DNA from: a virus
Strand: one strand, 5' to 3'
DNA: 23,452 nt
Virus record (IMG/VR): IMGVR_UViG_3300022924_000031
Span: 1 to 23,452 of that record
Below are positions 3,404 through 22,966 of the stretch, piece after piece (position 1 is the stretch's first letter; every line of letters begins with the position of its first letter). Made by a program: the position numbers and the translations under genes. Under the pieces are notes generated by a model, which worked only from the letters and a program-made list of their open reading frames with translations, was not told the origin of the DNA and searched no databases.

Positions 3404-3428
3404 CGGAGTTTCTGATAGACTCCCGTTA
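3401..3428 (+). repeat. Inverted repeat overlapping a late-promoter-like element
   Basis: TAACGGAGT (3401-3409) pairs with ACTCCCGTTA (3419-3428), giving nine pairs with one bulged C and a 9-nt loop. The 5' arm includes the stop codon of the upstream gene and the 3' arm overlaps the TAGACT -10. No clean T tract follows, so it is not called a terminator. Confidence 0.5.
3413..3421 (+). promoter_or_regulatory. Extended -10 promoter (late type) for the portal/connector operon
   Basis: TGATAGACT, that is TG-n-TAGACT, is followed by CCCGTTAAA. Over 18 bases this matches the site at 10803 at 15 positions. It lies 25 nt before the ATG at 3447. No convincing -35 is present, as is common for extended -10 promoters. 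Confidence 0.5.
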
Positions 3429-3446
3429 AATTTGAGGATTTTTCGC

Positions 3447-3731
3447 ATGAGCAAAGTAGAATTCACCTACAGCAAAGGCGGTAAGACCGTACCCATGGCG
3501 CGCCGTTACGCTGAAACTTTGCGCAAGCTAGGCCACGGCACCTACGAAACCCGGATGCTCACTGCTGCCGCGCCGAAAGCTCCTGCAGAAGACGACGAGC
3601 CGCTGGTATCCGCCGCACTCGCAGAGTTCGCCGCTGAGAATAAAGTCGACCTTTCCAAAATCACCGGCACAGGTAAAGATGGACGCATCAAGAAGTCTGA
3701 TATTGAAGCCGCCATCGCCGTGCAGGTGTAA
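3447..3731 (+). CDS. Small phage protein with a C-terminal E3/peripheral-subunit-binding domain
   Basis: 94 aa. The start is ATG 3447 with GAGGA 8 nt upstream; an in-frame TTG at 3432 would include that ribosome site, so it is rejected. The N-terminal ~38 residues (GGKTVPMARRYAETLRKLGH) form a small basic domain, followed by an Ala/Pro/acidic linker. Residues ~53-90 (LAEFAAENKVDLSKITGTG, then KDGRIKKSDIEAAI) match the peripheral-subunit-binding fold of 2-oxoacid dehydrogenase E2 subunits, including the DLS.I.GTG..GRI.K.DIE signature. In E2 this three-helix domain binds E3 or E1. The position just before the portal suggests a virion or assembly role. The partner is unknown; binding either a host dehydrogenase complex or another virion protein is possible. 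Confidence 0.8.
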   Translation: MSKVEFTYSKGGKTVPMARRYAETLRKLGHGTYETRMLTAAAPKAPAEDDEPLVSAALAEFAAENKVDLSKITGTGKDGRIKKSDIEAAIAVQV

Positions 3732-3734
3732 ACG

Positions 3735-5126
3735 ATGCGTCTATTCGGTCGAGAGCTGTCCCTAACCTTCAAGCGCGCGCCAATGTCGCCGCCCGGTACG
3801 GGCATGGGCGGTTGGTGGCCGATGATCCGCGAACCCTACTCAGGCGCATGGCAGAAGAACGATACGTGGACTAACGAATCAGTCTTGGCACATTACGCCG
3901 TCTACGCCTGCGTAACGTTGATCGCTAATGACATCGGCAAACTGCGCCAGCGCTTGATGGAACTGGACGCGAACGGTATCTGGAAAGAGACCACGAGCCC
4001 AGCTTTCAGTCCGGTGCTAAAGAAGCCGAACAACTACCAGAACCACATCCAGTTCAAGCAGTGGTGGCAGACGTCCAAGCTGATCAGCGGCAATACCTAC
4101 GGGTTGAAGCAGCGTGACCAGCGCGGCGTCGTCGTGGCAATTTACTTGCTCGATCCGTGCCGCGTGCTCCCCCTGGTTGCTGACGACGGCTCTATCTACT
4201 ACCAGCTTTCGAACGACAACCTGAACCGAGTAGGCGACGGCGTAACCGTACCGGCGTCCGAGATCATCCATGACCGGATGAACTGCTTGTTCCATCCACT
4301 GGTCGGTGTATCGCCGCTCTATGCCGCTGCGCAAGCCGCGTGTCAATCGCTCAAGATGCAAAGTGATAGCTCGACGTTCTTCGAGAACGGTGCGCGCCCT
4401 GGTGGTATCCTGTCCGCCCCCGGCGCTATCAGCGACGAGACTGCAGCACGGCTCAAAGCGCATTGGGACGCGAACTACACCGGCCAGAATGCGGGCAAGG
4501 TCGCTGTGGTCGGTGACGACCTGAAGTTCCAGCAGATGAAGATGTCGGCCACCGATTCGCAGTTGATCGAGCAGTTCCGGCTTACCGCGGAAATGATCTG
4601 CACCGCGTTCCACGTTCCGCCGTCTAAAGTCGGCGTAACCAACTCGCCGACCGGTACCACGGCCGCGCAAGAGAACCAGAAATATTACTCGGACTGCATT
4701 CAAGTTCTCGTCGAAGAGTATGAAGCCTGTATGGACGACGGTTTGTCCTTGCCTCCGCAGTACGGGGTAGAACTGGATCTAGACGGCCTGCTAAGGATGG
4801 ACATGGGTGCCCTAGTTGAAACGCTTAAAACCGCCGTAGGAGCCGGCATCATGGCGCCTAACGAGGCTCGATACCGTATGAGCTTGGGTCCTGTTACGGG
4901 CGGCGCTCAACCTTATCTTCAAATGCAGAACTTTAGCTTGGAAGACCTGGCTAAACGTAGCGCTTCCGGCGACCCCTTCGGGACGGAGCAGGCAGAACCA
5001 GAGACGCCTACGGAGATTTCAGAAGTAGACGCTGAAAGCATTAAGAATTATACTTTTGAGGCATTAACAAAAGAGTTCGCCTCGAATGAAGATTTGCAAA
5101 ACTTGTGGAATCCCGAAACCGCTTGA
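3735..5126 (+). CDS. Portal protein (HK97-type)
   Basis: 463 aa. Forms the dodecameric ring at one capsid vertex through which DNA is packaged and ejected, and to which the neck is attached. Recognisable portal stretches are LAHYAVYACVTLIANDIGKL near the N-terminus, NTYGLKQRD, the GVSPLYAAAQAACQSLKMQ segment, FFENGARPGGILS, FRLTAEMICTAFHVPPSKVG, and the late GIMAPNEARYRMSLGP. The start is ATG 3735, three bases after the preceding stop, with AGG 3724-3726 as a weak ribosome site. The final ~30 residues (from about 5041) are AT-richer than the rest, and the last 13 codons overlap the start of the HNH gene. In HK97-type phages the portal normally precedes the capsid gene; here it follows. Confidence 0.95.
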   Translation: MRLFGRELSLTFKRAPMSPPGTGMGGWWPMIREPYSGAWQKNDTWTNESVLAHYAVYACVTLIANDIGKLRQRLMELDANGIWKETTSPAFSPVLKKPNNYQNHIQFKQWWQTSKLISGNTYGLKQRDQRGVVVAIYLLDPCRVLPLVADDGSIYYQLSNDNLNRVGDGVTVPASEIIHDRMNCLFHPLVGVSPLYAAAQAACQSLKMQSDSSTFFENGARPGGILSAPGAISDETAARLKAHWDANYTGQNAGKVAVVGDDLKFQQMKMSATDSQLIEQFRLTAEMICTAFHVPPSKVGVTNSPTGTTAAQENQKYYSDCIQVLVEEYEACMDDGLSLPPQYGVELDLDGLLRMDMGALVETLKTAVGAGIMAPNEARYRMSLGPVTGGAQPYLQMQNFSLEDLAKRSASGDPFGTEQAEPETPTEISEVDAESIKNYTFEALTKEFASNEDLQNLWNPETA

Positions 5127-5832
5127 TTCTTTTAGCAAAGCTAAGAGAGCGAGAGGAGAGCGTGCATCACGGGGCGGCAATGGCGTAGCTAGCAACTGTA
5201 AATATTGCGTAGCAGAAAAACGTAGCCCAGGCATCCACGCCCGCAAAGAAGCTGAAGCACAGGAGAGAGCTTCGCTGTACGCCGCGGGGCTCAAACGCTG
5301 TACAAAATGCGAAGAAGTGAAATCGGTATCGCACTTCTGTGTGCGTAAAGCTTCGCCGGACGGCCTGAATTTAAAGTGCAGAGGATGCACGAAGGATTAT
5401 CTCGAAGGCTGGAGAGAAGAAAATCCGGATAGTTTCAAGAACTACTACGCCGAGAAGAAGGGAGAGCTCAACGCTAACTTCAAAGCATGGCGGGAAGAAA
5501 ATTCAGAGTCTCGCGCTGAGTACATGGCGAGATGGCTCCAGCAGAATCGGGCGCTATCCAACGAAAGGGCCATGCGGCGGGTAGCCTCAAAGCGACGGGC
5601 GACGCCAAAGTGGGCTAATCGCGAAAGAATGGTAGAATTCTACAAAGAGGCCGAAAGGTTGACGGCCGAGACGGGAATTCCTCATAACGTGGACCACATT
5701 TATCCTCTGCAAGGGAAGGTTGTTTGCGGTCTTCACTGCGAGGCGAACCTGAACGTCATTACGCAGTTTGAGAACATCCAGAAGCTTAATCGGATGCCTA
5801 CCGAAGAATATTTACAAAGGTGCAAGCAATGA
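5086..5832 (+). CDS. HNH homing endonuclease with two Cys4 zinc-finger-like modules
   Basis: 248 aa. The N-terminus has two CxxC pairs (C4/C7 and C38/C41), then a second such module (C72/C75 and C98/C101); both are typical zinc-binding DNA-recognition ribbons. A charged helical middle carries repeated W-REEN patterns. The HNH core lies near the C-terminus: NVDHIYPLQG (residues 201-210), GLHCEANL (215-222) and ENIQKLN (229-235), matching the D-H...N...N layout of HNH nucleases. The gene starts inside the portal gene (41-nt overlap) and ends overlapping the next ATG (ATGA at 5829-5832), so it fits exactly into the portal-decoration junction. AAGAG ~10 nt before the ATG is a weak ribosome site. 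A selfish insertion is the likeliest reading. Confidence 0.88.
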   Translation: MKICKTCGIPKPLDSFSKAKRARGERASRGGNGVASNCKYCVAEKRSPGIHARKEAEAQERASLYAAGLKRCTKCEEVKSVSHFCVRKASPDGLNLKCRGCTKDYLEGWREENPDSFKNYYAEKKGELNANFKAWREENSESRAEYMARWLQQNRALSNERAMRRVASKRRATPKWANRERMVEFYKEAERLTAETGIPHNVDHIYPLQGKVVCGLHCEANLNVITQFENIQKLNRMPTEEYLQRCKQ

Positions 5833-6743
5833 ATCACGGCGACATCGATAGCATCGTAAAGGGCCTCGCCCCCGCCGTGATGGCGTACCTAAGCAAGGGT
5901 TTGGAAAACTTCGACGCCCGTATAAAAGAGCAGGCGCAAGAGATAGCCGAGCTGCGTAAGTGCCTTGCCGATCGCCCTATGCCGGTTGAACCGGACTTGG
6001 AAGCTATCGCCGCCCTGGTGAAGCTGCCGGAAGTCAAAGACGGCGAGCCCGGCAAAGATGCTGAGCCGGTCGACCTCGCCGCGCTTGCCGAAGCCGCCGC
6101 CAAGCTTATCGTTTTGCCCGAAGTGAAGGACGGCAAAGACGCTGCGGAAGTTGACCTGGCCGCAGTGGCGGCGCTTGTCGAAGTCCCGGCGCCTGAGAAG
6201 GTCGACGTAGAAGCCATCGCCCGCGCTGCCGCCGCGCTGATCCCAGTTCCCGAAGTGAAGCAGCCAGAAGACGGCCGCGATGCGATCGACTTGGAGATTC
6301 TTCCGGCGATCGACGATTCCAAGCAGTACCCACGAGGCACTTACGCAGCGCACAACGGCGGTCTGTGGAAGTCGTACGAGCGCACGCACGGCATGCGCGG
6401 CTGGGAGTGCATCGTGGACGGCATCGCGTCGGCCAGCGTAGCCCAAGACGATGTGCGAGAGTTCTCCGTGAAGCTGGTTAAGTCCAGTGGCGCCGAGATC
6501 GTGCAGAAGTTCCACATGCCAATCCAGGTTTATAAAGGCGTGCACCGTGAAGGCGACTCCTACGACGCTCACGACAACGTGACATGGGCCGGTAGCCAGT
6601 GGACCTCGAACAAGTCGGCAAACACCGACAAGCCAGGCGCTAGCGACGCGTGGACCATGGTCGTCAAAGCCGGTCGTAACGGTAAAGACCTACGTGAGAA
6701 TGCGAGCACTTTTGACCCGGCTAAAGGAGTGACGTTGAAATGA
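5829..6743 (+). CDS. Putative virion decoration/fibre protein with DG-rich repeats and two carbohydrate-binding-type modules
   Basis: 304 aa. ATG 5829 is chosen over GTG 5820 because AAAGG (5816-5820) lies 8 nt upstream. A helical, coiled-coil-prone N-terminus (to ~residue 45) is followed by about four degenerate repeats combining D-[LV]-x-A-[IL]-A-x-L and LPEVKDG-type units (residues ~55-155). The C-terminal half has two stretches resembling CBM5/12-like modules of phage virion proteins: YPRGTYAAHNGGLWKS with GWECIVDG, and YKGVHREGDSYDAHDNV with WTSNKSANTDKPGASDAW. It ends NGKDLRENASTFD. Such proteins commonly follow the portal or capsid and are thought to decorate heads or necks. The exact role is unknown. 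Translation is coupled to the HNH gene upstream and, through an ATGATG overlap, to the connector gene downstream. Confidence 0.6.
   Translation: MNHGDIDSIVKGLAPAVMAYLSKGLENFDARIKEQAQEIAELRKCLADRPMPVEPDLEAIAALVKLPEVKDGEPGKDAEPVDLAALAEAAAKLIVLPEVKDGKDAAEVDLAAVAALVEVPAPEKVDVEAIARAAAALIPVPEVKQPEDGRDAIDLEILPAIDDSKQYPRGTYAAHNGGLWKSYERTHGMRGWECIVDGIASASVAQDDVREFSVKLVKSSGAEIVQKFHMPIQVYKGVHREGDSYDAHDNVTWAGSQWTSNKSANTDKPGASDAWTMVVKAGRNGKDLRENASTFDPAKGVTLK
5994..6295 (+). repeat. Degenerate tandem protein-coding repeats (PEVKDG-type)
   Basis: About four imperfect units of 22-30 codons, each with a helical DLAAxAxL-like part and a proline/valine turn such as LPEVKDG, VPAPEK or VPEVKQPEDG. They lie between the coiled-coil N-terminus and the binding modules of the 5829-6743 product and probably form an extended stalk of evolvable length. 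Confidence 0.6.
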
Positions 6744-7114
6744 TGTACGTCACCCTGGAGCGCGCAAAAGAACACCTGAACATGGACCACAGTTCAGACG
6801 ACAACCTGATCACGGTCTACATTCATGCCGCGTCCGGCGCGGTGAAGAACTACCTAAAGAGCGCTTCGCCTTATGAGGTCGAGCGCGACAGCAACGACGA
6901 TATTATCGTCGACAGCTCGGGCGATCCTATCTACGTCGTCGACAGCAACGGTGACAAAGAGGTCAGCTATCCAGTCCAGGCTGCCACGCTCTTGATGGTA
7001 GGCTTCTTGTACAAAGACCGCGACGAGAACCCGGATGACGCGTTTGCCCGTGGCTACCTACCAATGCCGGTAACCGCACTACTTTACCCACTTCGTGATC
7101 CCGCCCTAGCATAA
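6740..7114 (+). CDS. Head-tail connector protein, gp6-like
   Basis: 124 aa adaptor expected to form a ring beneath the portal. MMYVTLERAKEHLNMDH plus DDNLITVYIHAASGAVKNYL is the characteristic opening of HK97 gp6/phage connector proteins (TLEEAK.HL......DD.LI..YI.AA...V..Y), and the C-terminus VQAATLLMVGFLYKDRDENPD...LPMPVTALLYPLRDP fits the same family. A ~25-residue polar insertion in the middle (DSNDDIIVDSSGDPIYVVDS) looks like a surface loop. The start at 6740 overlaps the previous stop, with AAGGAG (6724-6729) 10 nt upstream; ATG 6743 is an alternative. Confidence 0.88.
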   Translation: MMYVTLERAKEHLNMDHSSDDNLITVYIHAASGAVKNYLKSASPYEVERDSNDDIIVDSSGDPIYVVDSNGDKEVSYPVQAATLLMVGFLYKDRDENPDDAFARGYLPMPVTALLYPLRDPALA

Positions 7115-7127
7115 AAGGACTACAAAG

Positions 7128-7781
7128 ATGGCTGACAAATTCGCACGGGTCTTCGGGAGCTTTCTCCGGCGGATCATCGACATGGGTGATGGAACCTGGT
7201 CGGAACGCGTGGTCGCGGAACCGCCATTTGATCTCCTGACGGATGGCGGCGACGGTCCTGTACGGCGACTCCGCGTTGATACGGGTCAAACCGGTTTCTT
7301 CGGGCGTCGCATGTGGGCTATCAACTACGAGTTCGCGTCGGCCAATCCAATCGCCGCTACACCACTCGTGTTCCGCGTCATTATCCCCGTGAATTTCATA
7401 ATCCACGCGCATACTCTAACTCTCGATCAGGGTGGCGCTACCCTGCGGACGTACGCAGCCTCCCAAGGCGTAGCGGGAGGGACTTTTGCTTCGGCCCACA
7501 CACCTGTATCCGAAAACAGCATGACCGAGCAAGCGGCGTACACGTTCCAATCGCAGATCGCATCAGGAGGCACGTTCACGCCGAACGTCGGCCAGGTTCC
7601 GCTCACCCCGCTTCGTGTCAGGACAGCCGGCGCCACCGCGCAGCAGTCCAGCGTGGGCGGCGAAGCGGTATCCGAGAAAGGAAGGGTAGCAGGGACCTAC
7701 TACGCCGTTATCGCGCGCATGACGGGCGTCAGCGGCGACTGTACGGGCACGTACAACTTGGTCATCGAGGAGCGCCCATGA
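7128..7781 (+). CDS. Conserved-looking phage structural protein of unknown function
   Basis: 217 aa with AAGGA 8 nt before the ATG. I do not recognise a named family with confidence. The first ~40 residues (RRIIDMGDGTWSERVVAEPP) form a short opening of the type seen in head-region proteins, followed by beta-rich sequence, low in charge and rich in Gly, Thr, Ala and Ser, with no membrane segment or catalytic motif. The C-terminal part (GTYYAVIARMTGVSGDCTG, YNLVIEERP) reads like a beta-sandwich end. Position between the connector and the closure protein, and the ATGA overlap with the latter, support a virion component, perhaps a decoration or neck adhesin. Confidence 0.5.
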   Translation: MADKFARVFGSFLRRIIDMGDGTWSERVVAEPPFDLLTDGGDGPVRRLRVDTGQTGFFGRRMWAINYEFASANPIAATPLVFRVIIPVNFIIHAHTLTLDQGGATLRTYAASQGVAGGTFASAHTPVSENSMTEQAAYTFQSQIASGGTFTPNVGQVPLTPLRVRTAGATAQQSSVGGEAVSEKGRVAGTYYAVIARMTGVSGDCTGTYNLVIEERP

Positions 7782-8116
7782 GCCGCGCCGGGCAGTACCG
7801 CCACCGAGTGGACATTCAGGACTGGACCGCAGTTCGTGACGAAGAGACGGGCGGCTTCACTGAAGCTTGGGTAACCGTGTTCGCCGATGTGCCAGCGCGC
7901 ATTGCTCCCGCCAGCGGTCGGGAATTCCTGGCCGCTGCGGCGATCCAATCCGAGATCGTCGCGCGCATCGTGATCCGCCAGCGCCCCGGCCTGAATGCCA
8001 AGCAACGCATTTTACACAACGGGGATATCTACAACGTCCACGCGTGGCTGCCGGATCAGGAAAGCGGGCGCGATTACGTTTCTGCTCCGTGTTCGCGGGG
8101 CGTCAATGAGGGTTAG
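7778..8116 (+). CDS. Head-tail joining / head closure protein
   Basis: 112 aa. ATG 7778 overlaps the upstream stop (ATGA) and has GAGGAG (7767-7772) 5 nt before it. The frame stays open much further upstream, but that part is a shadow of the preceding gene. MSRAGQYRHRVDIQ, EETGGFTEAWVTVFADVPARI, ASGREFLAAAAIQSEIVARI and RQRPGLNAKQRILHNGDIYN are the standard blocks of the Phage_H_T_join family (HK97 gp7/SPP1 gp16-like), small beta-barrel proteins that close the head after packaging and provide the tail-docking surface. Confidence 0.9.
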   Translation: MSRAGQYRHRVDIQDWTAVRDEETGGFTEAWVTVFADVPARIAPASGREFLAAAAIQSEIVARIVIRQRPGLNAKQRILHNGDIYNVHAWLPDQESGRDYVSAPCSRGVNEG

Positions 8117-8119
8117 AAG

Positions 8120-8311
8120 ATGATCTATGATTCAGAGAAAGGTTCACGCGGCAAAGTGTTTTCAAACGGTGTAGAAGTGGATCGCTGCATCAAGAGTGTC
8201 GATACGGAAACCGGAGAAGTAGTGTGCTCCGTTGAGCCTATGCGCGTAGAAAACGGTCGAGTAGTGAATGAAACGCTGGTGCTTGAGAACGTAACTTTCG
8301 AACCGGAATGA
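8120..8311 (+). CDS. Small protein of unknown function (63 aa)
   Basis: Starts 3 nt after the closure gene with AGGG about 7 nt upstream of the ATG, and ends in an ATGA overlap with the glycosyltransferase-like gene. It is hydrophilic and probably beta-rich (GKVFSNGVEVDRCIKSVDTE, GEVVCSVEPMRVENGRVVNE), with no membrane segment. The alternation VSVDTETGEVV-type/VENGRVV suggests a small beta-sandwich. Tight spacing on both sides supports expression. Function is not recognised. Confidence 0.6.
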   Translation: MIYDSEKGSRGKVFSNGVEVDRCIKSVDTETGEVVCSVEPMRVENGRVVNETLVLENVTFEPE

Positions 8312-8859
8312 AAACCTTCGTCTGCATAGCGTCCGGCCCAAGCCTCAACGCACAAGACTGCGAACTGGTCCGGGCGTCAGGCCTCCCCACAATCGCTGTG
8401 AACAAATCCTGGCAGCTAGCCCCATGGTGCGATCACCTTTACGCAGGTGATCTCGCTTGGTGGGATGTGAACGTCCATGGGATTCCCCATGGACCTAAGC
8501 GATGGAGCTGTACGCGCCAGGCAGTGGCAAAGCACGGTTTGAACTATGACGAAAAGTACGGTGAATATAACTCTGGTTTGAGAGCGATCGAACTGGCCTT
8601 CAAGCTCGGCGCAGAACACGTCCTGCTTCTTGGGTACGACTGCACGGTGTCTAACGGTACGCACTGGCATGGCGACCACGAGAACACGAAGAACCCGGAC
8701 GAACTCCGGTGCCGCAAATGGGCAGCGCAACACGCCCGGCTGCCGCAGCGTGATAGGGTGGTGAACTGCTCGCGTGAAACGGCGTTGGAATGCTACCGGC
8801 TCGGGTATTTGGAAAAAGAGTTGCAAAAGGTTGTTGACACTTGTGATAAGCGGGACTAG
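8308..8859 (+). CDS. DUF115/GT42 (sialyltransferase)-like glycosyltransferase candidate
   Basis: 183 aa. The opening FVCIASGPSLNAQDC carries the xGPSL nucleotide-sugar-binding motif found in DUF115/Maf-type and CstI/II-like transferases, followed by a strand-helix pattern (LPTIAVNKSWQLAPWCDHLY, AGDLAWWD). NSGLRAIELAFKLGAEHVLLLGYD is a Rossmann-like segment, and THWHGDH a conserved-looking His cluster. Small proteins of this type are frequent in phages. The acceptor could be a virion protein or a host surface glycan; neither can be told from sequence. The gene is coupled to the 63-aa gene by ATGA. It contains two perfect hairpins (8431-8452 and 8473-8494), and its stop codon overlaps the -10 of a promoter. 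Confidence 0.65.
   Translation: MKTFVCIASGPSLNAQDCELVRASGLPTIAVNKSWQLAPWCDHLYAGDLAWWDVNVHGIPHGPKRWSCTRQAVAKHGLNYDEKYGEYNSGLRAIELAFKLGAEHVLLLGYDCTVSNGTHWHGDHENTKNPDELRCRKWAAQHARLPQRDRVVNCSRETALECYRLGYLEKELQKVVDTCDKRD
8431..8494 (+). repeat. Two tandem perfect hairpins inside the glycosyltransferase-like gene
   Basis: GATCACCT-ttacgc-AGGTGATC (8431-8452; 8-bp stem, 6-nt loop) is followed 20 nt later by GTCCATGGG-attc-CCCATGGAC (8473-8494; 9-bp stem, 4-nt loop). Both are fully paired despite being coding sequence. Confidence 0.8.
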
Positions 8860-8862
8860 AGT
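8834..8862 (+). promoter_or_regulatory. Sigma-70-type promoter
   Basis: A perfect TTGACA -35 (8834-8839), a 17-nt spacer and TAGAGT (8857-8862) as -10 (4/6). The -10 overlaps the stop codon of the upstream gene. It would start a transcript near 8870, running into the leader and terminator before the small membrane-protein gene. Related to the site at 10624-10652. Confidence 0.6.
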
Positions 8863-9043
8863 TCGTTTCAGAGGCAGCTAGCTATCAGGCGCACAACGTG
8901 AAGCCGGACAAGAATGCAGAGTTCCGGATTAAAGTGCAGTCTCTAACTGATCAACCAGCGCCAAGACCGCGAAAGCATGGTGAGTCTAGAGAAGTTCACC
9001 CGTCGCAGCCCGCACATGCGGAACCCCAGAATTCCCGTACTTC
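8863..9043 (+). ncRNA. Structured leader/ncRNA region A
   Basis: A gap of 224 nt with no convincing gene lies between the glycosyltransferase-like gene and the 54-aa gene. It holds a promoter at its 5' edge, a CCGGA/TCCGG hairpin (8904-8927), a GGTGA/TCACC hairpin (8979-9000) and a terminator. A frame open from GTG 8898 runs through to the 54-aa gene but is low-complexity and would cross the terminator. Three blocks align in order with region B (10653-10763). It could be a terminated small RNA or an attenuator leader. Confidence 0.4.
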
Positions 9044-9069
9044 AACCCGTCGAAAGGCGGGTTCTTTTT
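9044..9069 (+). terminator. Rho-independent terminator with GAAA tetraloop
   Basis: AACCCGTC (9044-9051) and GGCGGGTT (9056-9063) form an 8-bp stem, one pair a wobble, closed by GAAA and followed by C-TTTTT (9064-9069). It stands only 15 nt before the ATG of the next gene, so that gene needs read-through or another promoter. Confidence 0.85.
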
Positions 9070-9083
9070 ATCTGGAGATCGAT

Positions 9084-9248
9084 ATGGCTCAGATATCCTT
9101 AACGATTAACCTTAAGAAAGCATGGTGGGTAGGTAGCTTTCTTTGGGGCTCCGCGCTGATCCTGCGCATAGCCGGGCGAGACGAATTCCCGGAAAGCCTT
9201 CTTCGTTGGGTAGTCGCTCACGGATTCAAAATGGAACTTAGCGAATGA
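9084..9248 (+). CDS. Small single-span membrane protein (54 aa)
   Basis: Starts at ATG 9084 with GGAG (9074-9077) 6 nt upstream. The longer in-frame GTG start at 8898 would translate through a terminator and is rejected. Residues ~10-30 (KKAWWVGSFLWGSALILRIAG) form one hydrophobic helix after a basic flank, followed by an amphipathic C-terminal part (FPESLLRWVVAHGFKMELSE). No family is recognised. It overlaps the GT9-like gene by ATGA and may be an inner-membrane anchor or partner for that enzyme, though this is inference. Confidence 0.6.
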   Translation: MAQISLTINLKKAWWVGSFLWGSALILRIAGRDEFPESLLRWVVAHGFKMELSE

Positions 9249-10117
9249 TCATCCACGGAATGCGGGGCCTCGGAGATAATCTCTTCATGCGCCCTTTCAT
9301 AAAAGCTTTGCCCAAACCTGTTTATCTCGATACGCCTTGGCCGGAAATTTATTCTGATATTCCCGGCGTACACTTCCTCCGACCGCAAACCAATCTGCGC
9401 ACCCAAGCGAAGAACATCGCGCGCCACGCAACCTGGACGATGCCGCCCACGCGTCAACCGACTCGGCAGATACGCTACGGTACCGAGGGAATTATTCCCG
9501 GGATGATTGCCAGCTTCGGAGTAATGCCGGGCGAGTTCGACCTACCGCCACTGCCGCCTTCGCCCGAGTCCGACCCGTATGTCGTGGTGAGGCCTGCCAC
9601 AGTGCGCAGTGAGTGGCGTGCCGATACGCGTAACCCTGATCCAGATTACATAGCAGTAGCCGCAGCTTTGGCATGGGCAAAAGGCTATAAAGTGATCAGC
9701 GTCGCCGACCTAGAAGACGGCAAGGAGTGGGCGGTAGAACCTTTGCCGATCGCCGACGTGCGTTATCACAAAGGCGAGCTGCCGGTTGAACAACTGCTGG
9801 CGCTCGTCAAGGGTGCTGCCGCCGTGATCGGCGGTATCGGCTGGCTGGTCCCGGCGGCGCTTGCGGCCAAGGTTCCCGCGTGGATCATCTGCGGCGGCCA
9901 AGGCGGCTTCAATTCCCCGAAGCAGATCTGCCCGGACGGCAGTACAATTACCTTCGCAGTGCCGGACAACTTTTGCCGGTGCAAACTCAAACAACACAAC
10001 TGTGACAAGAGGATTTCCAACTATGACGCCAAGCTTACCGCGTGGGCTGACCGACACCTTGCTTTGGTCGGAGGAGCTGGGGCGCGGATTTCACACGCGG
10101 CCAGCAATGCGCTATGA
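9245..10117 (+). CDS. Glycosyltransferase family 9 (heptosyltransferase)-like protein
   Basis: 290 aa, GT-B-type candidate. The N-terminus MIIHGMRGLGDNLFMRPFI resembles the GxGDxL...P opening of LPS heptosyltransferases, which transfer ADP-heptose to a lipid-linked core. The C-terminal half has GAAAVIGGIGWLVPAALAAK followed by VPAWIICGG, corresponding to the donor-site G..G..H.A.A..VP segment, although the usual His is absent. It is shorter than cellular family members (~320-350 aa). A Cys-rich end (NFCRCKLKQHNCDKR) is unusual. Its last 95 nt overlap the methyltransferase start. It could modify virion or host glycan; the acceptor is unknown. Confidence 0.7.
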   Translation: MIIHGMRGLGDNLFMRPFIKALPKPVYLDTPWPEIYSDIPGVHFLRPQTNLRTQAKNIARHATWTMPPTRQPTRQIRYGTEGIIPGMIASFGVMPGEFDLPPLPPSPESDPYVVVRPATVRSEWRADTRNPDPDYIAVAAALAWAKGYKVISVADLEDGKEWAVEPLPIADVRYHKGELPVEQLLALVKGAAAVIGGIGWLVPAALAAKVPAWIICGGQGGFNSPKQICPDGSTITFAVPDNFCRCKLKQHNCDKRISNYDAKLTAWADRHLALVGGAGARISHAASNAL

Positions 10118-10646
10118 AGGCCAGTATTTCGCGCACTACCAGAAGCTTGATGCAACGCCGATGGGAGGCCTGCTGACCAAAGCGCGATTGGAACTGGTAG
10201 AGAAATACATCGACCCGTCCGAGACGGTAGACATCGGAATCGGAGGGGGCCGTTATGTCCAAGAAGCCAAGGGCCGTGGCTACGATGTGAATATCGATGC
10301 CATCAACTGGCTGGATGAAAGCGGCATCTACTGGGATGTGTACCATCGGGACGGCGCTGTTAAAGCGGTAACCTGCTGGGATAGCTTGGAGCACATCCCT
10401 GAACCTGAAAAGCTGCTGGCGCAGGTAACAGGTTGGCTCTTCGTCTCTATGCCGATCTATAACGACATGGCGGATTGCTTGGCCAGTAAGCACTACAAGC
10501 CGGGTGAGCATTTGCACTACTGGACGCTGCCAGGATTTGTGAACTGGTGCGAAGACCAAGGCTTCCAGGTTATGGAAGTCAACCACGCTGAATCAGAATT
10601 AGGCCGCGAAGGCATTACGTCGTTTGCGTTCAAGCGGGTTAGCTAG
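10023..10646 (+). CDS. Class I SAM-dependent methyltransferase
   Basis: 207 aa. Motif I is TVDIGIGGGRYVQEAKGRGY, followed by a post-I acidic position (VNIDAINW) and the motif-IV-like CWDSLEHIPEPEKLL, the layout of Methyltransf_11/23 enzymes that often act on small molecules or sugars. HYKPGEHLHYWTLPGFVNWC and the final TSFAFKRVS complete the fold. The start is ATG 10023 because GAGGA (10009-10013) lies 9 nt upstream. This gives a 95-nt overlap with the GT9-like gene. A later in-frame ATG, MRYEGQYF at ~10109, would nearly abolish the overlap but lacks a ribosome site. Coupling to the GT9-like gene suggests methylation of the sugar or glycan it handles. Confidence 0.8.
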   Translation: MTPSLPRGLTDTLLWSEELGRGFHTRPAMRYEGQYFAHYQKLDATPMGGLLTKARLELVEKYIDPSETVDIGIGGGRYVQEAKGRGYDVNIDAINWLDESGIYWDVYHRDGAVKAVTCWDSLEHIPEPEKLLAQVTGWLFVSMPIYNDMADCLASKHYKPGEHLHYWTLPGFVNWCEDQGFQVMEVNHAESELGREGITSFAFKRVS

Positions 10647-10652
10647 TAAAGT
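10624..10652 (+). promoter_or_regulatory. Putative sigma-70 promoter related to the 8834 site
   Basis: TTGCGT (10624-10629), a 17-nt spacer and TAAAGT (10647-10652). The stop codon of the methyltransferase abuts the -10. From the -10 onward, TAAAGTTGTGTTTCGGAGG matches TAGAGTTCGTTTCAGAGG at 8857 at about 16 of 19 aligned positions, with one gap. Confidence 0.45.
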
Positions 10653-10763: not shown

Positions 10764-10797
10764 AAAGCCCTGACCTAAAAACTCAGGGCTTTTTCTT
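10764..10797 (+). terminator. Rho-independent terminator
   Basis: AGCCCTGA (10766-10773) pairs perfectly with TCAGGGCT (10783-10790) around a 9-nt loop, extendable by A-T pairs, followed by TTTTT-C-TT. Confidence 0.9.
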
Positions 10798-10802: not shown

Positions 10803-10811
10803 TGATAAACT
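10803..10811 (+). promoter_or_regulatory. Extended -10 promoter (late type) for the tail-completion genes
   Basis: TGATAAACT (TG-n-TAAACT) followed by CCCGGCAAA, placed directly after the terminator and 24 nt before the ATG at 10835. Fifteen of 18 bases equal the site at 3413. No good -35 is visible. TTGCC/GGCAA flanks it as a short inverted repeat (10796-10819). Confidence 0.55.
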
Positions 10812-10834
10812 CCCGGCAAACCGAGGGCGACGAC

Positions 10835-11647: not shown

Positions 11648-11675
11648 TTGCGAATCGCGCCCCGCGTGATATGCT
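11648..11675 (+). promoter_or_regulatory. Late-type promoter for the tail tube operon
   Basis: TGATATGCT (TG-n-TATGCT at 11667-11675) followed by TCCGTCGAA. It shares TGATA..CT.CCG...AA with the sites at 3413 and 10803. A TTGCGA (11648-11653) lies 16 nt upstream as -35. The ATG of the tube gene is 36 nt downstream. Confidence 0.55.
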
Positions 11676-11711
11676 TCCGTCGAACGTTCATCAATCCATG
11701 AGGCAACACCC

Positions 11712-16130: not shown

Positions 16131-16133
16131 CCC

Positions 16134-17162
16134 GTGGCTAAAAGAATTAGTGAATTGCCGTCGGCAACACTAGCTAATGAAAGCGATATCGACGCCGTGG
16201 TTCAGTCGGGTATCACCCGCAAACGTACGCTGACACAATTGCGCGCCGCTATCGTGGGCGGGTGGCAAGGGTTTATAGGTACGTTCCTCGGTGCTGCAAG
16301 TGCGGCTGATGCGCGTACAGCGATTGGCGCAATCGGCAGTGCTGACAACATTAGCGGCAGTGCGGCAAAACTGACAACATCGCGCAATATTGCCGCAACT
16401 GGGGATGTCGCGTGGAACGTAAACTTTGATGGCTCAGCCGCAGCTACTGCCGCAGCTACTGTCGGACGCAAAGTAAGTCCGGCGTACATCGAAGGGTTGC
16501 AGATGTCGTGGGTAAGCGCTAACGCACTGACTGTTCAAACGGGTTCGGCCTACATCGATTCGTTGGCCACTGTCTTACCGGTTCCGGCTGCGATTGCAAA
16601 AACCGGTCTCGTGCTTGCGGCTGCAACGAAATACCACGTTTATCTGTTCTCAAACGCTGGTACACCTGACATTGAGATTGTCACCACCGCGCCTTCTGCG
16701 AAGGTATACGGCAACGCCAGGACTAAGACCGGTGACGCATCACGGCGTTATGTCGGGTCGATCTTCACTGGCGCTGCAAACACCATTCTGCGCTTCAAGC
16801 AAAGCGGCAATAAAATACTGTACGGCGGTGACTTCACCGCCTCCCCCTTTTCTGTGCTATCGAACGGCGTGGCCACGGCATCGACTAACGTTTCGTTGGC
16901 TGGTTGTGTGCCGGAAACTGCACCTTTTGCGCAATTGTTCCTATGGAGCAACACGGCAAACGCAGTAGGCCTTTATGTTAATGATGCTGACACTGGTGCG
17001 GTGTCTACGACTAATAGTCAAGTATCGCTTGCTTTGGGTCAAATGCTCTGCTGCGAACTGGCGATTTCTTACGGTGCCCAGTTGCTGAATTACGCGTACT
17101 CTGCCACGCCCGGTGCAAACGGTGCGTACATGCGAGTCCAAGGTTACACCTTCGAGAGATAA
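16134..17162 (+). CDS. Tail fibre protein
   Basis: 342 aa with a GTG start supported by GGAGAG (16121-16126) 7 nt upstream. The N-terminus KRISELPSATLANESDIDAV and TRKRTLTQLRAAI is the usual baseplate/tip attachment segment of phage fibres. A GAASAADARTAIGAIGSADN stretch and a repeat-like LTTSRNIAATGDV / FDGSAAATAAAT region form the shaft, and the C-terminal ~200 residues are beta-rich without a recognised catalytic motif. It probably contributes to receptor contact together with the tailspike that follows. Confidence 0.75.
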   Translation: MAKRISELPSATLANESDIDAVVQSGITRKRTLTQLRAAIVGGWQGFIGTFLGAASAADARTAIGAIGSADNISGSAAKLTTSRNIAATGDVAWNVNFDGSAAATAAATVGRKVSPAYIEGLQMSWVSANALTVQTGSAYIDSLATVLPVPAAIAKTGLVLAAATKYHVYLFSNAGTPDIEIVTTAPSAKVYGNARTKTGDASRRYVGSIFTGAANTILRFKQSGNKILYGGDFTASPFSVLSNGVATASTNVSLAGCVPETAPFAQLFLWSNTANAVGLYVNDADTGAVSTTNSQVSLALGQMLCCELAISYGAQLLNYAYSATPGANGAYMRVQGYTFER

Positions 17163-17166
17163 TTAA

Positions 17167-19320
17167 ATGGCTAACACCTACCCAACCGCGCAGTACCCGC
17201 TAGGCTCGACTGAAGTCAAGGTTCTGTATAACAACGCCTCGAACCTGGACGACGCGGTAAACGATCAAGTCAACTTGACGTGGCCCGACCGTTTCGGGGC
17301 AATTCGAAAGACCTATCACGGTATCGAAGTCGACGCGCAAAACGCGCTGTTGAATACGGGATACGAATTTATCGGCGATTACGACGCGGATGGCCCGCTG
17401 ACGATTGATCGGTTGAACCAGATATTTACGAAGGACGGGGAGTTCTGGCGAGCCGCAGCGCCACCGCCGGGCCCCGGGCCGGTGCTTCCGTATACCACCG
17501 TAAACAACTGGGCTATCGATCAGCCGAAGTTTGTCAGTGCTGGTGACGCAGTGTTGCGTACAGACCTTGCCGCGCCTCCTGGTGCCGGTCTTATCGGGTT
17601 CGCTGGTGACGGTAGCGTAAACTACCCAGCGGGAACTGTTGGCTATGCTTTGCTGCGTTCGCTGCCTGCGTTCGTCAACGCCAGTTCGTATGGCTTCGTT
17701 GGCGACGGTACGAATGTCGACACGCTGCGGCTACAGACAGCTATCGATTCCGGGTTCCCAATTTGCATCAACGCCGGTACGTTCGAAGTCACGCTTGCGC
17801 AGAACATCCCCCTTGAGGGCGGCGCTAGTGTCTGTGCTTTGATCATCAAAACTGGCATGATTTTGAAAGGCGCCGGGAAGGGCAAAACGATCATCAAGTT
17901 GAAGGACAATGAGTCGACTGACGCTTCGCCGAAATACTTCAACATCTTCGCCGGTAACAGCATCATCCAAGATGCCCACTTCAGTGACTTCACAATTGAC
18001 GTGAACGGCGCGAATAACAAGATCAGCCCGAGTCGCGGCTCAGGCGTCTATAACCCTTATAACTGCGCAGGCATCTTCGTGTCAGGCCGCGTGGCTACCG
18101 TCGGCACTGACGCACGCATGCTAAATTGCAGCATTATGAATATGGCGTTCATCAACTCGCCCGGCGTAACCTGCATCGCAACCGGTCAACAGGAAGGTTC
18201 GGCTGTACTCAGCAATAACGTTCAAATCATGTTCTGCGATTTCTACAACAACGGAATCGACAGCAGCGACCACTCGTCTGTGTACATGTGGGGGAACAAG
18301 ATTTGGGTGCAGTTCTGCAACTTCGACCACCCGTCGCAGTCTACCGGTGTCGCTGGCCCTGTGGTTGCTGCTGAACTGCACGGTTCGTCGAACTTCTTCT
18401 GCAACAATAACATCAACAATTACTGCCAGATTGCATGGGTGTCAGGCAACCAGACCGGCCCGTCAATCGGCATGCACGTATGCAACAACCACGCACGGGT
18501 TAGCTGGGTTGGCGTTGGCCTGTACAGCCTGACCACAATTGCGCTTGGCCTGCGTGACGTGATCATCCATGACAACACCATTGAAATCTTGCAAGGGCCA
18601 ATCCTTAACCCTGGAATGACGTTCCCTAAAACGGGCATTTTGCTTGGCGTGGAAGACGGGCAATCCGACCGTGTTTCTGTGCAAGGCAACGTTCTGAAGT
18701 GCTTCGACGTTGTGTCGAACATGGGTATCCTGGTCGCTCCAGGTTCGGCGGCGTTCATGCAGGACACCGACGTAAAAGGCAATATGGTGTCCGGTTTCAG
18801 TCGCGGTATCGTTGTCGGCCTGGGGGCGACCGGTACGGCGTTCGACACGATGATCAGCGACAACAACATCTGCAATCTTACACCGTCTACCGCGGTAGCT
18901 CTGCCGGATGGTATCCACGTCACTGGCGCGCACGGTGCAATGTCCATCAAGGGCAACAAGATTGCGGGCAGCGTGATAAACCGCGGCATCTTCCTAAGCA
19001 CCTTCGGCGGTCCGTCTACGCTTGACTCGCTTGATATGGACGGTAACGACGTTGCGTCGAATGCGACAACCCCTATCTTCGATTCGATGATTGTTTCCGG
19101 TCGTCGTCAAGGTCGTCAGGCCTGCACGATCACTACCGCAGTGCCAACCAACGCGACCTGGCGCATCGGTGACGAAGTGTACTATGCGCCAAACCTGATG
19201 GCCTTCGGTGGCGGTGGCGGTACGCAGTACATTGTGGACGGGTTGCGCAGGATGACGAACGGGACAGGCAACGTACTAAACGTCGACTGGTTCCAGCAAC
19301 GTCGACTGACCGGCAACTAA
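17167..19320 (+). CDS. Tailspike with right-handed beta-helix, probable capsule/O-antigen depolymerase
   Basis: 717 aa. Residues 1-~95 (YPTAQYPLGSTEVKVLYNNA, RFGAIRKTYHGIEVDAQNAL) are a virion-anchoring domain found on many tailspikes, followed by a PPPGPGP hinge and a second short beta domain. From ~residue 178 (SSYGFVGDGTNVDTLRLQTA) it follows the pectate-lyase-3 superfamily opening, with many short beta-helix rungs containing N-N-x-I/V patterns (NNVQIMFCDFYNNGI, FFCNNNINNYC, NNHARVSWVG, GNMVSGFSRG). The C-terminal ~60 residues look like a separate cap. Such trimeric proteins bind and cleave surface polysaccharide. Catalytic acids cannot be assigned by eye. The tip set interrupted by fibre and spike suggests modular exchange. 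Confidence 0.85.
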   Translation: MANTYPTAQYPLGSTEVKVLYNNASNLDDAVNDQVNLTWPDRFGAIRKTYHGIEVDAQNALLNTGYEFIGDYDADGPLTIDRLNQIFTKDGEFWRAAAPPPGPGPVLPYTTVNNWAIDQPKFVSAGDAVLRTDLAAPPGAGLIGFAGDGSVNYPAGTVGYALLRSLPAFVNASSYGFVGDGTNVDTLRLQTAIDSGFPICINAGTFEVTLAQNIPLEGGASVCALIIKTGMILKGAGKGKTIIKLKDNESTDASPKYFNIFAGNSIIQDAHFSDFTIDVNGANNKISPSRGSGVYNPYNCAGIFVSGRVATVGTDARMLNCSIMNMAFINSPGVTCIATGQQEGSAVLSNNVQIMFCDFYNNGIDSSDHSSVYMWGNKIWVQFCNFDHPSQSTGVAGPVVAAELHGSSNFFCNNNINNYCQIAWVSGNQTGPSIGMHVCNNHARVSWVGVGLYSLTTIALGLRDVIIHDNTIEILQGPILNPGMTFPKTGILLGVEDGQSDRVSVQGNVLKCFDVVSNMGILVAPGSAAFMQDTDVKGNMVSGFSRGIVVGLGATGTAFDTMISDNNICNLTPSTAVALPDGIHVTGAHGAMSIKGNKIAGSVINRGIFLSTFGGPSTLDSLDMDGNDVASNATTPIFDSMIVSGRRQGRQACTITTAVPTNATWRIGDEVYYAPNLMAFGGGGGTQYIVDGLRRMTNGTGNVLNVDWFQQRRLTGN

Positions 19321-19321
19321 C

Positions 19322-19816
19322 ATGAGCGCCATTCTTGCGGAAGTTAACGCAGGGGCCAATGAGGGTACGGATTGCATAATCCGTACCCTTGAGTTGGTTT
19401 GCGCTGCGTGGGCCGAACCGGTGTTCATATGCACCGGTTTTGAAGACGTTATCGCGACTGATGAAAATGGCAGGGTGATAACCTTCATCGGGGCCAATAT
19501 CGATATCGCCTTAGCGGCCAAGAATAACAAGGGGAATCAGACATTAGCCTTCGCTGTGGACAATACGACTGGTGAAGCCTCGCGACTTATCGACCGGGCT
19601 ATCGAAGCGAACGCCCGCGTTACAGCGATTTACCGAACCTATCTGAACACGAACCTTGCCGCACCCGCCGAAAAGCCCTACGTGCTTACGCTTCTCGGAG
19701 GAACTATACAAGGACAACAGGCGCAGCTTGATACCGGGTTCTTCAACATGATTGGGGTAGCCTGGCCGAGACAGCTGTACACTGTAAACTTCGCCCCAGG
19801 TCTGAGGTACATATAG
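19322..19816 (+). CDS. DUF1833 minor tail protein (gpL-like position)
   Basis: 164 aa, one base after the tailspike stop and overlapping the NlpC/P60 gene (TAGTG). ITFIGANIDIALAAKNNKGN, QTLAFAVDNTTGEASRLID, VTAIYRTYLNTNLAAPAEKP and a final WPRQLYTVNFAPGLRYI are typical of DUF1833, a tail-tip component found directly before the NlpC/P60 and gpJ-like genes. No good ribosome site precedes the ATG, so translation is probably coupled to the tailspike. The first 120 nt contain two strong hairpins. Confidence 0.85.
   Translation: MSAILAEVNAGANEGTDCIIRTLELVCAAWAEPVFICTGFEDVIATDENGRVITFIGANIDIALAAKNNKGNQTLAFAVDNTTGEASRLIDRAIEANARVTAIYRTYLNTNLAAPAEKPYVLTLLGGTIQGQQAQLDTGFFNMIGVAWPRQLYTVNFAPGLRYI
19362..19389 (+). 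repeat. Perfect 12-bp hairpin inside the DUF1833 gene
   Basis: AGGGTACGGATT (19362-19373), loop GCAT, AATCCGTACCCT (19378-19389). The repeat is fully paired and begins 40 nt after the start codon. No T tract follows. Confidence 0.9.
19416..19439 (+). repeat. Second perfect hairpin inside the DUF1833 gene
   Basis: AACCGGTG (19416-19423), loop TTCATATG, CACCGGTT (19432-19439), followed by TT-GAAG. It starts 26 nt after the 12-bp hairpin. Confidence 0.85.
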
Positions 19817-20211
19817 TGGAATGGGTCAATAGTTATCTGTGTTGCGCGTACGAGGATGGCGCACGGGGTCCCGACCGGTACGACTGCTGGGGCCTGGTTA
19901 GACACGTCAGACACGCTGAACTAGGCAAGAGGCTCCTGGCCGAGTACGGCAGCCTGCGCAATAAAGACCCACGAGAATTCACGCGTGCCTACGAGGAAGA
20001 ATCCTCCGTAATGGAGTTGTGCCAGCCCGAGCACGGAGCCATTGCCGCTGTTATGATTGGGCGTATCTGCACACATGTAGCACTGGTCGTAGAGTCCCTT
20101 GACGGATTGAGGATCCTTGAGATAAACCCAACGCGCGGCCCTCGCTTCCTTCCCCTACACAAATGGTTGCGTGACCATTCGACGGTCACTTTCCACAGAG
20201 ATCGCCCATGA
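19816..20211 (+). CDS. NlpC/P60 family peptidase (tail tip, gpK-like)
   Basis: 131 aa with a GTG start overlapping the DUF1833 stop. The catalytic Cys lies in YDCWGLVRH (C24), the His in ICTHVALVVES (H87), and the third polar position is in LEINPTRGP (about N104), the arrangement of NlpC/P60 gamma-D-glutamyl-diaminopimelate peptidases. In tail tips these enzymes cut peptidoglycan cross-links to help DNA entry. It lacks the JAB/Mov34 half found in lambda gpK, so it is the peptidase-only version. It overlaps the gpJ-like gene by ATGA. Confidence 0.92.
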   Translation: MEWVNSYLCCAYEDGARGPDRYDCWGLVRHVRHAELGKRLLAEYGSLRNKDPREFTRAYEEESSVMELCQPEHGAIAAVMIGRICTHVALVVESLDGLRILEINPTRGPRFLPLHKWLRDHSTVTFHRDRP

Positions 20212-22922
20212 TCGAAATCTACGCAAGCCGCCTTTCAGACGAAGGGAAGGAAACCTATCACATTCGCAAACCACAACTGGTCAGCGAGTGGTTGTACCGG
20301 CATGGGATATCCCGAAAGACCGATCTTAGTAAACTCTCCGTAAGTCTGTACCTGAACGGCGAGATGCTAATTCCGCGCCAATGGCTAAGCACCTTAATCA
20401 CTGCCGCCGATACTGTTGAAATCTACAGAGAGCCAAAGGGCACTGACCCGTTTTCAATCACGTTCGCATTGATCGCAGGCGCGAAGGCTGTGCTTGGGCT
20501 GCTGATGCCAAAACTGCCGGGGATCAACCAAGGGAGCGGCGGTCCGCAAGGTGAAGGGTTGGGGCAGGGCAGCACGAAAGGCAATAAAGTAAAGATCAAT
20601 GATGTCCGGCCTGAACTCTTCGGGTACAACCCGCAGAGATATCCGGACTACTTGATGCCCCCGCGCAGCTACTACGCCGGCCCTCGCGAGCCACGTACAG
20701 AAATGTGTCTTAGCATCGGCCAGGGTTCGTATCAGATCAATTCAAACGAGGTGAAGACGGGGGAAACTCCGTTGACCACTTTGGGTACGGACGCCGTGTT
20801 CCACATCTACGGCCCCGGTGCGAACATCTTTAACGACCCCGCTCATTTCTTCTGGTACACCGCTCCAGAGGTAGGGGCCAGCAACACAGGTGCTAACGGT
20901 CTTGAGCTGACAACCGGCAGCGACCTTACATCACGGGCGACAGCGTCTGTGTTCTCCTTCAGCGGTGACACCGTGACCATTCCTAGTGGCGCTGGCGTGT
21001 TCCCCACCGACTGGCCTATAGGCATCTTGGTAAACGTCGCAGCGCCGTACAACTACACCGTAGCAGACGGCACAGGGGTTGGCGGGCGTGACGTTATAAG
21101 CGGACCGATTGCGCAGCATCATTTTCTGGTTGGCGATCAAATCCAGATAACAGGCGATAACCAAGGCTTCTACACAGTCACCGCAGTAACGCCGACTACG
21201 CTTCAGGTTGACTATGACGGGGGCGCACCCGGCACCGGCCTTGTGATCGGCTCTGTCGTGATGGCGATGTCGTATCGCAACATGCAATTTCGGATATTGA
21301 ACATCACCACCAACACCATGCAGGTCAAGCGTCTGCGCCCTGACGGTACTGATGACAACTCCTGGCCAGGGTGGGACGCCTTGTCGTCCAACGTCGCACA
21401 GGTGTTGCTCGACAGCTCCAACCAAGCGGCCGGCTACCGCGGACCTTTCCCGGCTTGCCCTGCTGGCGAATTGATCACGATGTTCGAAGTAGACGTGTTC
21501 TACCCAAGCGGGCTTGTGTTCCTCGATGCCAAAGGTAACTACAACTCGTTGACTGGTTTTCAGTCACTAGAGTGGCGCGACAAAGCACTGGGCGGGGCGT
21601 GGAACGTTTCAACTGTGCAGGCTACGTCAAACAACCTCGACGCGCAGGGCTACACGTATCAGGTCGCGTTGCCGTACCCGATGCGGCCTGAGGTCCGTAT
21701 GAAGAAAATCTTCGTGAACCAAGGCAGCGGCGACCCCGAGAAAGAACAAAACGACACGATGATGTGGCAACGTCTTAAGGGTCTGATGGTCTATTCGTCT
21801 CCTTCCGTATACGAAGGCTTGACGGTTATGACGCTCAACATACGCGGCGGTGATCGCATTTCTTCGCAAAGCGAAAGCCTAGTTAACTTGGCGTGTACAA
21901 GGATCTTGCCGGTGTTGCGAGGCGGCGCGTGGCAGGCGCCACAAGCGACGCGCGAGATATCCGCAGCCGTAGGCCATATAATTCGTAGCGTAGGCTATAA
22001 CGACGTAACGGATATCGACCTGACCGAACTGCAACGCTTGGAGTCAACACGCTGGACGCCGCGCGGGGATACCTACGACCGAATTGTTAATGACTCTAAG
22101 ACCGTAAAGTCGAATGTGATAGACGCGCTCCAAGCCGGCTTCTCCGAACTGACCATCGATCGAGGCCTACTGGTACCAGTGCGCGACGAACCGCGCGGGC
22201 CAGCGTTCGACCATGTATACAACCCTCCTGTCATGCTGGAGCCGCTCCAGTACGACTTCGTTATGCCGGATCAGCCGGACGACTTCGACGGCGTGGACGT
22301 AGAATATTACGATCACATCACGCGCCAAGACGAAACGGTGCCATGCCGATTGCCGGGGGACACAGGCGAACGAGTGGAGAAAATAAAGATCGAGGGCGTC
22401 GGGGTAAGGTTCCGCGCTTGGCGTATCGGCATGCGCCGGCGCCGAGCCCACCTGTATCGCCAGCGGCAGTACAGCTTCAAGACAGAACTGGACGCGCTTA
22501 ACAGCGCATACTTCGACTACGTGGCCCTGGGCGTGGCCACGCCCGGCTACGGGCAAAGCGCTGAAGTTGTAGGGTACACACCTGGAACACCGGTCACGAT
22601 AGAGTCGTCCGAACCCCTGGACTGGTCTACCCCCGGACAATACAAAGTAGTTATCCGGCGCCTAGACGGTACGGCTTCGGGGCCGTACGTCGCAACCTAT
22701 GTTGACGACTACACGTTTACCATTCCTTCGCTTGATTTTGTGCCGAACGTGTCCGGTGAAATTGACACGCCACCGATCATACAATTCGGGCATGAATCTA
22801 CATGGGCGTTTCCTGCCCTCGTCACTGAAGTAAAACCGAGCGGCACGAAGTCATGCAGTGTAACGGCTGTCAACTATGACGTTCGGATGTACGCAGACGA
22901 CGACGCGTTCCCGCCGAGTTAA
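20208..22922 (+). CDS. Tail tip / central host-specificity protein, gpJ-like with gpI-like N-terminus
   Basis: 904 aa. The first ~80 residues (KLSVSLYLNGEMLIPRQWLS, ITAADTVEIYREPKG) resemble the small ubiquitin-like gpI/tail assembly domain. A hydrophobic stretch (FALIAGAKAVLGLLMPKLPG) and a glycine-rich linker lead to the tail-hub domain VRPELFGYNPQRYPDYLMPP with CLSIGQGSYQI, as in lambda gpJ-like and related central proteins. Later parts are RVLPVLRGGAWQ-type hub text (RILPVLRGGAWQ), YDRIVNDSKTVKSNVIDALQ, and fibronectin-like beta segments near the C-terminus (GTASGPYVATYVDDYTFTIP). It closes the tail tube and takes part in receptor recognition and ejection. The C-terminus is short, with no long fibre. 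Confidence 0.88.
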   Translation: MIEIYASRLSDEGKETYHIRKPQLVSEWLYRHGISRKTDLSKLSVSLYLNGEMLIPRQWLSTLITAADTVEIYREPKGTDPFSITFALIAGAKAVLGLLMPKLPGINQGSGGPQGEGLGQGSTKGNKVKINDVRPELFGYNPQRYPDYLMPPRSYYAGPREPRTEMCLSIGQGSYQINSNEVKTGETPLTTLGTDAVFHIYGPGANIFNDPAHFFWYTAPEVGASNTGANGLELTTGSDLTSRATASVFSFSGDTVTIPSGAGVFPTDWPIGILVNVAAPYNYTVADGTGVGGRDVISGPIAQHHFLVGDQIQITGDNQGFYTVTAVTPTTLQVDYDGGAPGTGLVIGSVVMAMSYRNMQFRILNITTNTMQVKRLRPDGTDDNSWPGWDALSSNVAQVLLDSSNQAAGYRGPFPACPAGELITMFEVDVFYPSGLVFLDAKGNYNSLTGFQSLEWRDKALGGAWNVSTVQATSNNLDAQGYTYQVALPYPMRPEVRMKKIFVNQGSGDPEKEQNDTMMWQRLKGLMVYSSPSVYEGLTVMTLNIRGGDRISSQSESLVNLACTRILPVLRGGAWQAPQATREISAAVGHIIRSVGYNDVTDIDLTELQRLESTRWTPRGDTYDRIVNDSKTVKSNVIDALQAGFSELTIDRGLLVPVRDEPRGPAFDHVYNPPVMLEPLQYDFVMPDQPDDFDGVDVEYYDHITRQDETVPCRLPGDTGERVEKIKIEGVGVRFRAWRIGMRRRRAHLYRQRQYSFKTELDALNSAYFDYVALGVATPGYGQSAEVVGYTPGTPVTIESSEPLDWSTPGQYKVVIRRLDGTASGPYVATYVDDYTFTIPSLDFVPNVSGEIDTPPIIQFGHESTWAFPALVTEVKPSGTKSCSVTAVNYDVRMYADDDAFPPS

Positions 22923-22929
22923 TTGTGCG

Positions 22930-22938
22930 TGGTATCAT
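22930..22938 (+). promoter_or_regulatory. Extended -10 promoter for the lysis genes
   Basis: TGGTATCAT (TG-n-TATCAT, 5/6 to TATAAT) followed by GGCCGAAAC, 26 nt before the holin-like ATG at 22964. The layout and downstream CCG...A resemble the late-type sites, with a one-base shift. No -35 is visible. Confidence 0.55.
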
Positions 22939-22966
22939 GGCCGAAACACATAGGGGTTAGGCCATG
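22936..22966 (+). promoter_or_regulatory. Inverted repeat masking the holin start codon
   Basis: CATGGCC (22936-22942) is the exact complement of GGCCATG (22960-22966), whose ATG is the holin-like start codon. The 17-nt loop holds the AGGGG ribosome site (22952-22956). The 5' arm overlaps the -10 element, so only transcripts started upstream would contain both arms. Confidence 0.6.

Follow-up and report, generated by a model that had tools for sequence, protein, structure and literature searches.

Probable host-type extended −10 promoters at late module heads, and a possible C4-like RNA before a homing endonuclease gene, in an uncultivated HK97-type phage

Promoters of the sigma-70 extended −10 class have the form TGnTATAAT, with a −35 that is poor or absent, and the sigma-dependent pause sites of lambda pR' look like extended −10 elements as well. 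The C4 antisense RNA of P1 and P7 is processed by RNase P to a separate RNA of ~77 nt. In T4, endonuclease insertions have displaced transcription starts or bring promoters for the next gene (PMC2988022).

The stretch of DNA analysed here (the window; 23,452 nt) is a whole IMG/VR record that holds the structural block of an HK97-type tailed phage, with capsid, GIY-YIG endonuclease, portal, endonuclease VII-like, connector, tail and holin genes. No near DNA match to the window was found among deposited phages, whose portals are at most 53% identical, and our search of the open literature returned nothing that deals with these phages. Among portal relatives, IMG/VR contigs come closest, with up to 99% identity over the part of the portal compared; the nearest portal homologues in bacterial genomes, mostly beta- and gammaproteobacterial, are 44-61% identical. 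Two of four relatives of 45-47 kb (G001, G002, G005 and G008) carry ~127-nt terminal repeats, which suggests that these two are complete circular assemblies. In the window an endonuclease VII/HNH-like gene (5086-5832) overlaps the 3' end of the portal gene and is followed by a gene whose PHROG match is to the C-terminal part of a portal fusion. Past residue ~419 most relatives do not have the same portal C-terminus, and this end of the portal looks as if it had been rebuilt by endonuclease insertion. Between the connector and neck genes (8308-10646) lie accessory genes with sialyltransferase and methyltransferase PHROG matches, in an order conserved across relatives.

An earlier note on this DNA had placed 18-base elements at 3413, 10803 and 11667 and had read them as extended −10 motifs (TG-n-TAnnnT) at module heads, mostly without a −35. 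All three 18-mers have the sequences and coordinates that were given for them, and the reading as extended −10 motifs at module heads, mostly without a −35, is supported; relatives keep the element at the same distance from the same genes. The features concerned are as follows.

3413..3430, + strand: predicted extended −10 promoter of the portal operon; TG 3413-3414, −10 TAGACT 3416-3421, predicted start ~3428, ATG 3447
10765..10795, + strand: intrinsic terminator, 9-bp stem and T-tract, directly upstream of the neck promoter; in 38/47 distinct relatives
10803..10820, + strand: predicted extended −10 promoter of the neck gene; −10 TAAACT 10806-10811, predicted start ~10818, ATG 10835
11648..11653, + strand: possible weak −35, TTGCGA, 16 nt ahead of the −10 of the tube gene; most tube upstream regions conserve it
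11667..11684, + strand: predicted extended −10 promoter of the major tail tube gene; −10 TATGCT 11670-11675, predicted start ~11682, ATG 11712
22930..22945, + strand: predicted extended −10 promoter of the holin gene; −10 TATCAT 22933-22938, predicted start ~22945, ATG 22964

The TG at −15/−14 is present at 3413, 10803, 11667 and 22930, and T-12, A-11 and T-7 recur in all four hexamers (TAGACT, TAAACT, TATGCT and TATCAT), each with a frequency of 0.93 in the matrix. In terms of promoter parts, TG would be the extended −10 motif and TAnnCT the −10, with CCG falling in the discriminator and the AA near the end of the 18-mer lying where +1 would fall. A search of the window for the 12-base pattern gave three exact matches and no more, each on the + strand and in a gap ahead of a start codon; at up to three mismatches there are 19 matches against 14.4 expected, and thus no additional copies of the full pattern. 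Because the pattern was derived from those three sites, its rarity in the window is not evidence, and we therefore compared the orthologous upstream regions of relatives. In a genome-wide matrix scan the known sites scored far above the rest, but counts at lower cut-offs did not exceed those of shuffles, so we claim no genome-wide excess beyond the gene-start positions. An inverted repeat at 3405-3423 was considered as a functional feature and is taken as chance, its left half being absent in relatives such as L115 and L148.

For the comparison of orthologs we scored [TC]GnTAnnCT within −70..−15 of the start in distinct upstream regions, with shuffles as the control. The motif occurs in 20/37 distinct clade sequences at the portal operon, in 38 of the 44 at the neck gene and in 38 of the 42 at the tail tube gene (shuffles 0.7-1.2), counts that are not independent, the relatives forming one clade. 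Among outgroup phages it was found in 0/42 neck and 0/47 tube upstream regions. When any TAnACT-like hexamer is allowed, the portal operon has one in all 43 of 43 sequences and in 9/9 unrelated upstream contexts, 23-33 nt from the ATG, against a chance rate of 0.019 per sequence, the P value being indicative only because the hexamer set was picked after the data were seen. Taken gene by gene, the portal-operon, neck, tube, GIY-YIG and holin genes show clear enrichment of TGnTAnnnT upstream of the start, and most other genes are at or near background; a looser pattern has matches in 12/40 upstream regions of the tape-measure gene, and the genes at 17167 and 20208 have 5/26 and 4/28. Within the 18-mer TA..CT is conserved, TG mostly so (5/9 portal, 2/2 neck and 3/3 tube context representatives), and CCG not. 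The element is missing from five neck regions and from certain tube regions (L019, L154-type) and is therefore dispensable at single places. Where relatives bear the GIY-YIG gene, the final codons of the endonuclease (PYTES) contain the portal-operon −10, and retention of the −10 there could reflect protein sequence too. Upstream sequence of the tail tube gene is similar in many relatives.

Two further sites had been proposed. The one before the holin gene is borne out: the window reads TGGTATCAT at 22930, relatives carry TGGTATCAT, TGATACACT, TGTTACACT or TGCTACAAT there, and TGnTAnnnT is found upstream of the holin in 9 distinct relatives. The promoter suggested at 2280 we do not retain: its TAA serves the GIY-YIG gene as stop codon, a TG is lacking, and the relatives with it are few and share one upstream context. 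The terS region lies beyond the window, and in relatives a −10-like site is located between a conserved cos-like sequence and terS. There (in L200, L196, L029 and others) a promoter-like TGTTAnnCT comes after the cos-like CTGATCGCGCCGACC...AGAGATT, with short inverted repeats on either side (TTTGTTAC...GTAACAA in some relatives), possibly an operator.

At the neck gene the predicted promoter follows directly on a terminator. These terminators, present in 38/47 distinct regions, end 39-50 nt before the ATG and are built on several unrelated stems; with the −35 region taken up by the T-tract, an extended −10 would be of advantage. The cassette of terminator and promoter is present at 39/44 loci and absent in L005, L006, L038, L121 and L149, all of which have an HNH gene between the methyltransferase and neck genes; L019 has an HNH gene at that place, yet keeps the cassette. 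In outgroup loci (L043, L063, L087, L182 and others) an intrinsic terminator stands directly before the major tail tube gene with no −10-like element after it, implying read-through or antitermination there.

We consider it probable that the elements are extended −10 promoters of the host sigma-70 type, from which transcription starts afresh where each of these late sub-modules begins. Host RNA polymerase would read them at terS (seen in relatives), the portal operon, neck/tail, tail tube and holin, with TG at −15/−14 and the TAnnCT −10 substituting for a missing or weak −35. At the neck in most relatives, and at the portal operon in some, the promoter would sit directly behind an intrinsic terminator whose T-tract occupies the −35 region, a compact boundary located after the accessory genes. 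Promoter activity, use of the host polymerase and late timing are what we infer from sequence comparison, and late timing is plausible from the genes served. Instead of one master promoter, the predicted arrangement has several, at the head of the late block and within it. The C at the fifth −10 position departs from the textbook TATAAT and counts against a sigma-70 reading.

It is unlikely that the whole 18-mer with its CCG is the target of a phage-encoded activator or sigma-like protein that turns the modules on late. The elements do stand mainly before late genes, often without a −35, as such a factor would have it, but the CCG, taken by the earlier note as a defining part and as a sign of a possible phage-modified polymerase or activator, varies freely where the −10 alone is retained: it is present in 3/9 portal-operon, 1/2 neck and 1/3 tube contexts, base frequencies in that stretch of the matrix reach at most 0.59, and relatives have CCCG, CACC, CAGT, GAAT or GCGG in its place. 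It is therefore not a recognition element by itself. Against a modified polymerase, moreover, sister promoters in the same phages have −35 boxes (TTGACA N16 TAGAAT, TAGACA N16 TACACT and TTGAGT N16 TATACT); upstream of the endonuclease in several relatives the same −10 lies 16 nt after TTGACA or TAGACA, and portal-operon variants that lack TG carry TTGAGT at this same 16-nt spacing. Matches to the −35 averaged 3.1 with TG, 3.5 without TG and 2.4 in shuffles, a weak difference (P 0.04, relatedness not corrected). No RNA polymerase was found among the ORFs >500 aa of the four 45-47 kb relatives, which match terminase, capsid/protease, tape measure, tail, helicase, polymerase and primase; a phage polymerase was judged from this annotation because a PF00940 scan gave 0/20 and its control also gave no match. 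Small HTH proteins in some relatives resemble the sigma-r4 profile, which would suit a phage factor, but all of these matches are sub-threshold and no sigma match reached the cut-off. Promoters of single-subunit RNA polymerases are long and nearly invariant across sites; here only TA..CT and TG are kept. Finally, in some relatives the early HTH/primase operon is preceded by a similar −10 with a −35-like sequence (TTGCGT N17 TACGCT, read from the sequences), and the form is therefore not late-specific.

Still less probable, in our judgement, is that the elements are sigma-dependent pause or antitermination sites that mark Q-like loading points and not starts. Several of them are near terminators, and known pause sites resemble extended −10 elements; no promoter lies close upstream of them, however, the fixed distance to Shine-Dalgarno and ATG better suits a start site, and we noticed no Q-like gene in the PHROG matches of G001. 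Least credible is chance or shared ancestry, in which similar upstream DNA was inherited with the genes and has no function: the likeness of the tube regions and the small number of sites (three in one window) would fit it, but the −10 stays in place across unrelated upstream contexts and while the neck terminator stems turn over, and other gene starts of the same block are without the element.

Besides the elements that we read as host-type extended −10 promoters, a further −10 adjoins a structured RNA located between the capsid and GIY-YIG genes, with the following parts.

1412..1417, + strand: −10 TAAACT, next to the structured RNA upstream of the GIY-YIG gene; TA.ACT does not vary in alignment A1; in the window no TG and no −35
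1418..1482, + strand: three-way-junction RNA (65 nt) ending in a T-tract, from folding and covariation
1418-1432/1466-1480, + strand: RNA stem P1
1433-1436/1442-1445, + strand: RNA stem P2
1449-1453/1460-1464, + strand: RNA stem P3, loop CUCCCA 1454-1459
1487-1494, + strand: linker UUGGGAGA, complementary to the P3 loop
1503-1508, + strand: Shine-Dalgarno UGGGAG, in hairpin 1499-1512, complementary to the P3 loop; GIY-YIG start TTG 1518

In relatives the counterpart of the −10 at 1412-1417 has a −35, TAGACA, at 16 nt. None of 200 shuffles folds as well as the RNA (z −4.3), and 14/24 pairs carry compensatory changes across ten sequences, one of them from an outgroup. Ten distinct members are known including the window, 8 before GIY-YIG genes and 2 before HNH-like genes. 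Loop and target change together (CUCCCA/UGGGAG, CUCCCG/CGGGAG, CUCCUGG/CCAGGAG, CUCUCA/UGAGAG and CCUUCA/UGAAGG), and among six members the pairing of each loop with its own target is the maximum of all 720 permutations. The RNA matched no Rfam family; RF01695 (C4) gave no match at E up to 5 on the window stretch and up to 10 on two relatives, and a search from the single sequence for GIY-YIG relatives confirmed none. Four bacterial genomes gave covariance-model matches (E 8e-6 to 0.05), which are just 33-60 nt long and were set aside as simple hairpins.

We tentatively propose, as a real possibility, that one of these promoters is part of a new form of RNA control, that capsid-gene transcripts carry a terminated C4-like RNA whose loop, paired with the endonuclease Shine-Dalgarno as well, keeps that gene quiet, that transcripts begun at the −10 could escape, and that the structural modules are re-started by host-type extended −10s. 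A transcript from ~1424 would be without the first six bases of P1 and may therefore escape the terminator, unlike capsid-gene transcripts; we liken this to the T4 I-TevI case (PMC2988022). A second arrangement before the GIY-YIG gene is seen after the capsid gene in L157, L161, L128, L037, L025, L152 and L144, where a −35 (TAGACA/TAGACT), N16 and a −10 are followed at once by a simple terminator hairpin and then the endonuclease start. The −10 lies so near the hairpin that transcripts started from it would miss part of the stem.

If the RNA works as we read it, a selfish endonuclease would be under the control of an RNA switch, and C4-like systems would extend beyond immunity control. The promoters, for their part, suggest that uncultivated siphovirus-like phages could express late genes with the host polymerase from many small re-start promoters, often behind terminators, as an alternative to one long antiterminated operon, and they allow a comparison of how accessory and endonuclease genes displace promoters or leave them in place.

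With sigma-70 extended −10 promoters the elements share the TG one base before the hexamer, the mostly poor or absent −35 and a predicted start on A/G 6-7 nt after the hexamer. They differ in the −10, in most cases TAnACT or TATGCT with a C as its fifth base, in a G+C-rich discriminator, and in being present in several copies at late module heads in one clade. The structured RNA resembles the C4 antisense RNA of P1 and P7 (RF01695; PMC5320573, PMC2864571) in its three stems upstream of the target and in a loop complementary to the ribosome-binding site of that target; here, in contrast, the RNA ends in a T-tract, one loop would pair with both downstream sites, and the target is a homing endonuclease gene, where that of C4 is an antirepressor. 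With the regulation of T4 homing endonucleases (PMC2988022) the locus has in common the displacement or embedding of promoters and ribosome-binding sites held in RNA structure, but it belongs to another phage group, its promoters are sigma-70-like whereas T4 late transcription uses gp55, and the sequestering partner would be the loop of a separate upstream three-way junction.
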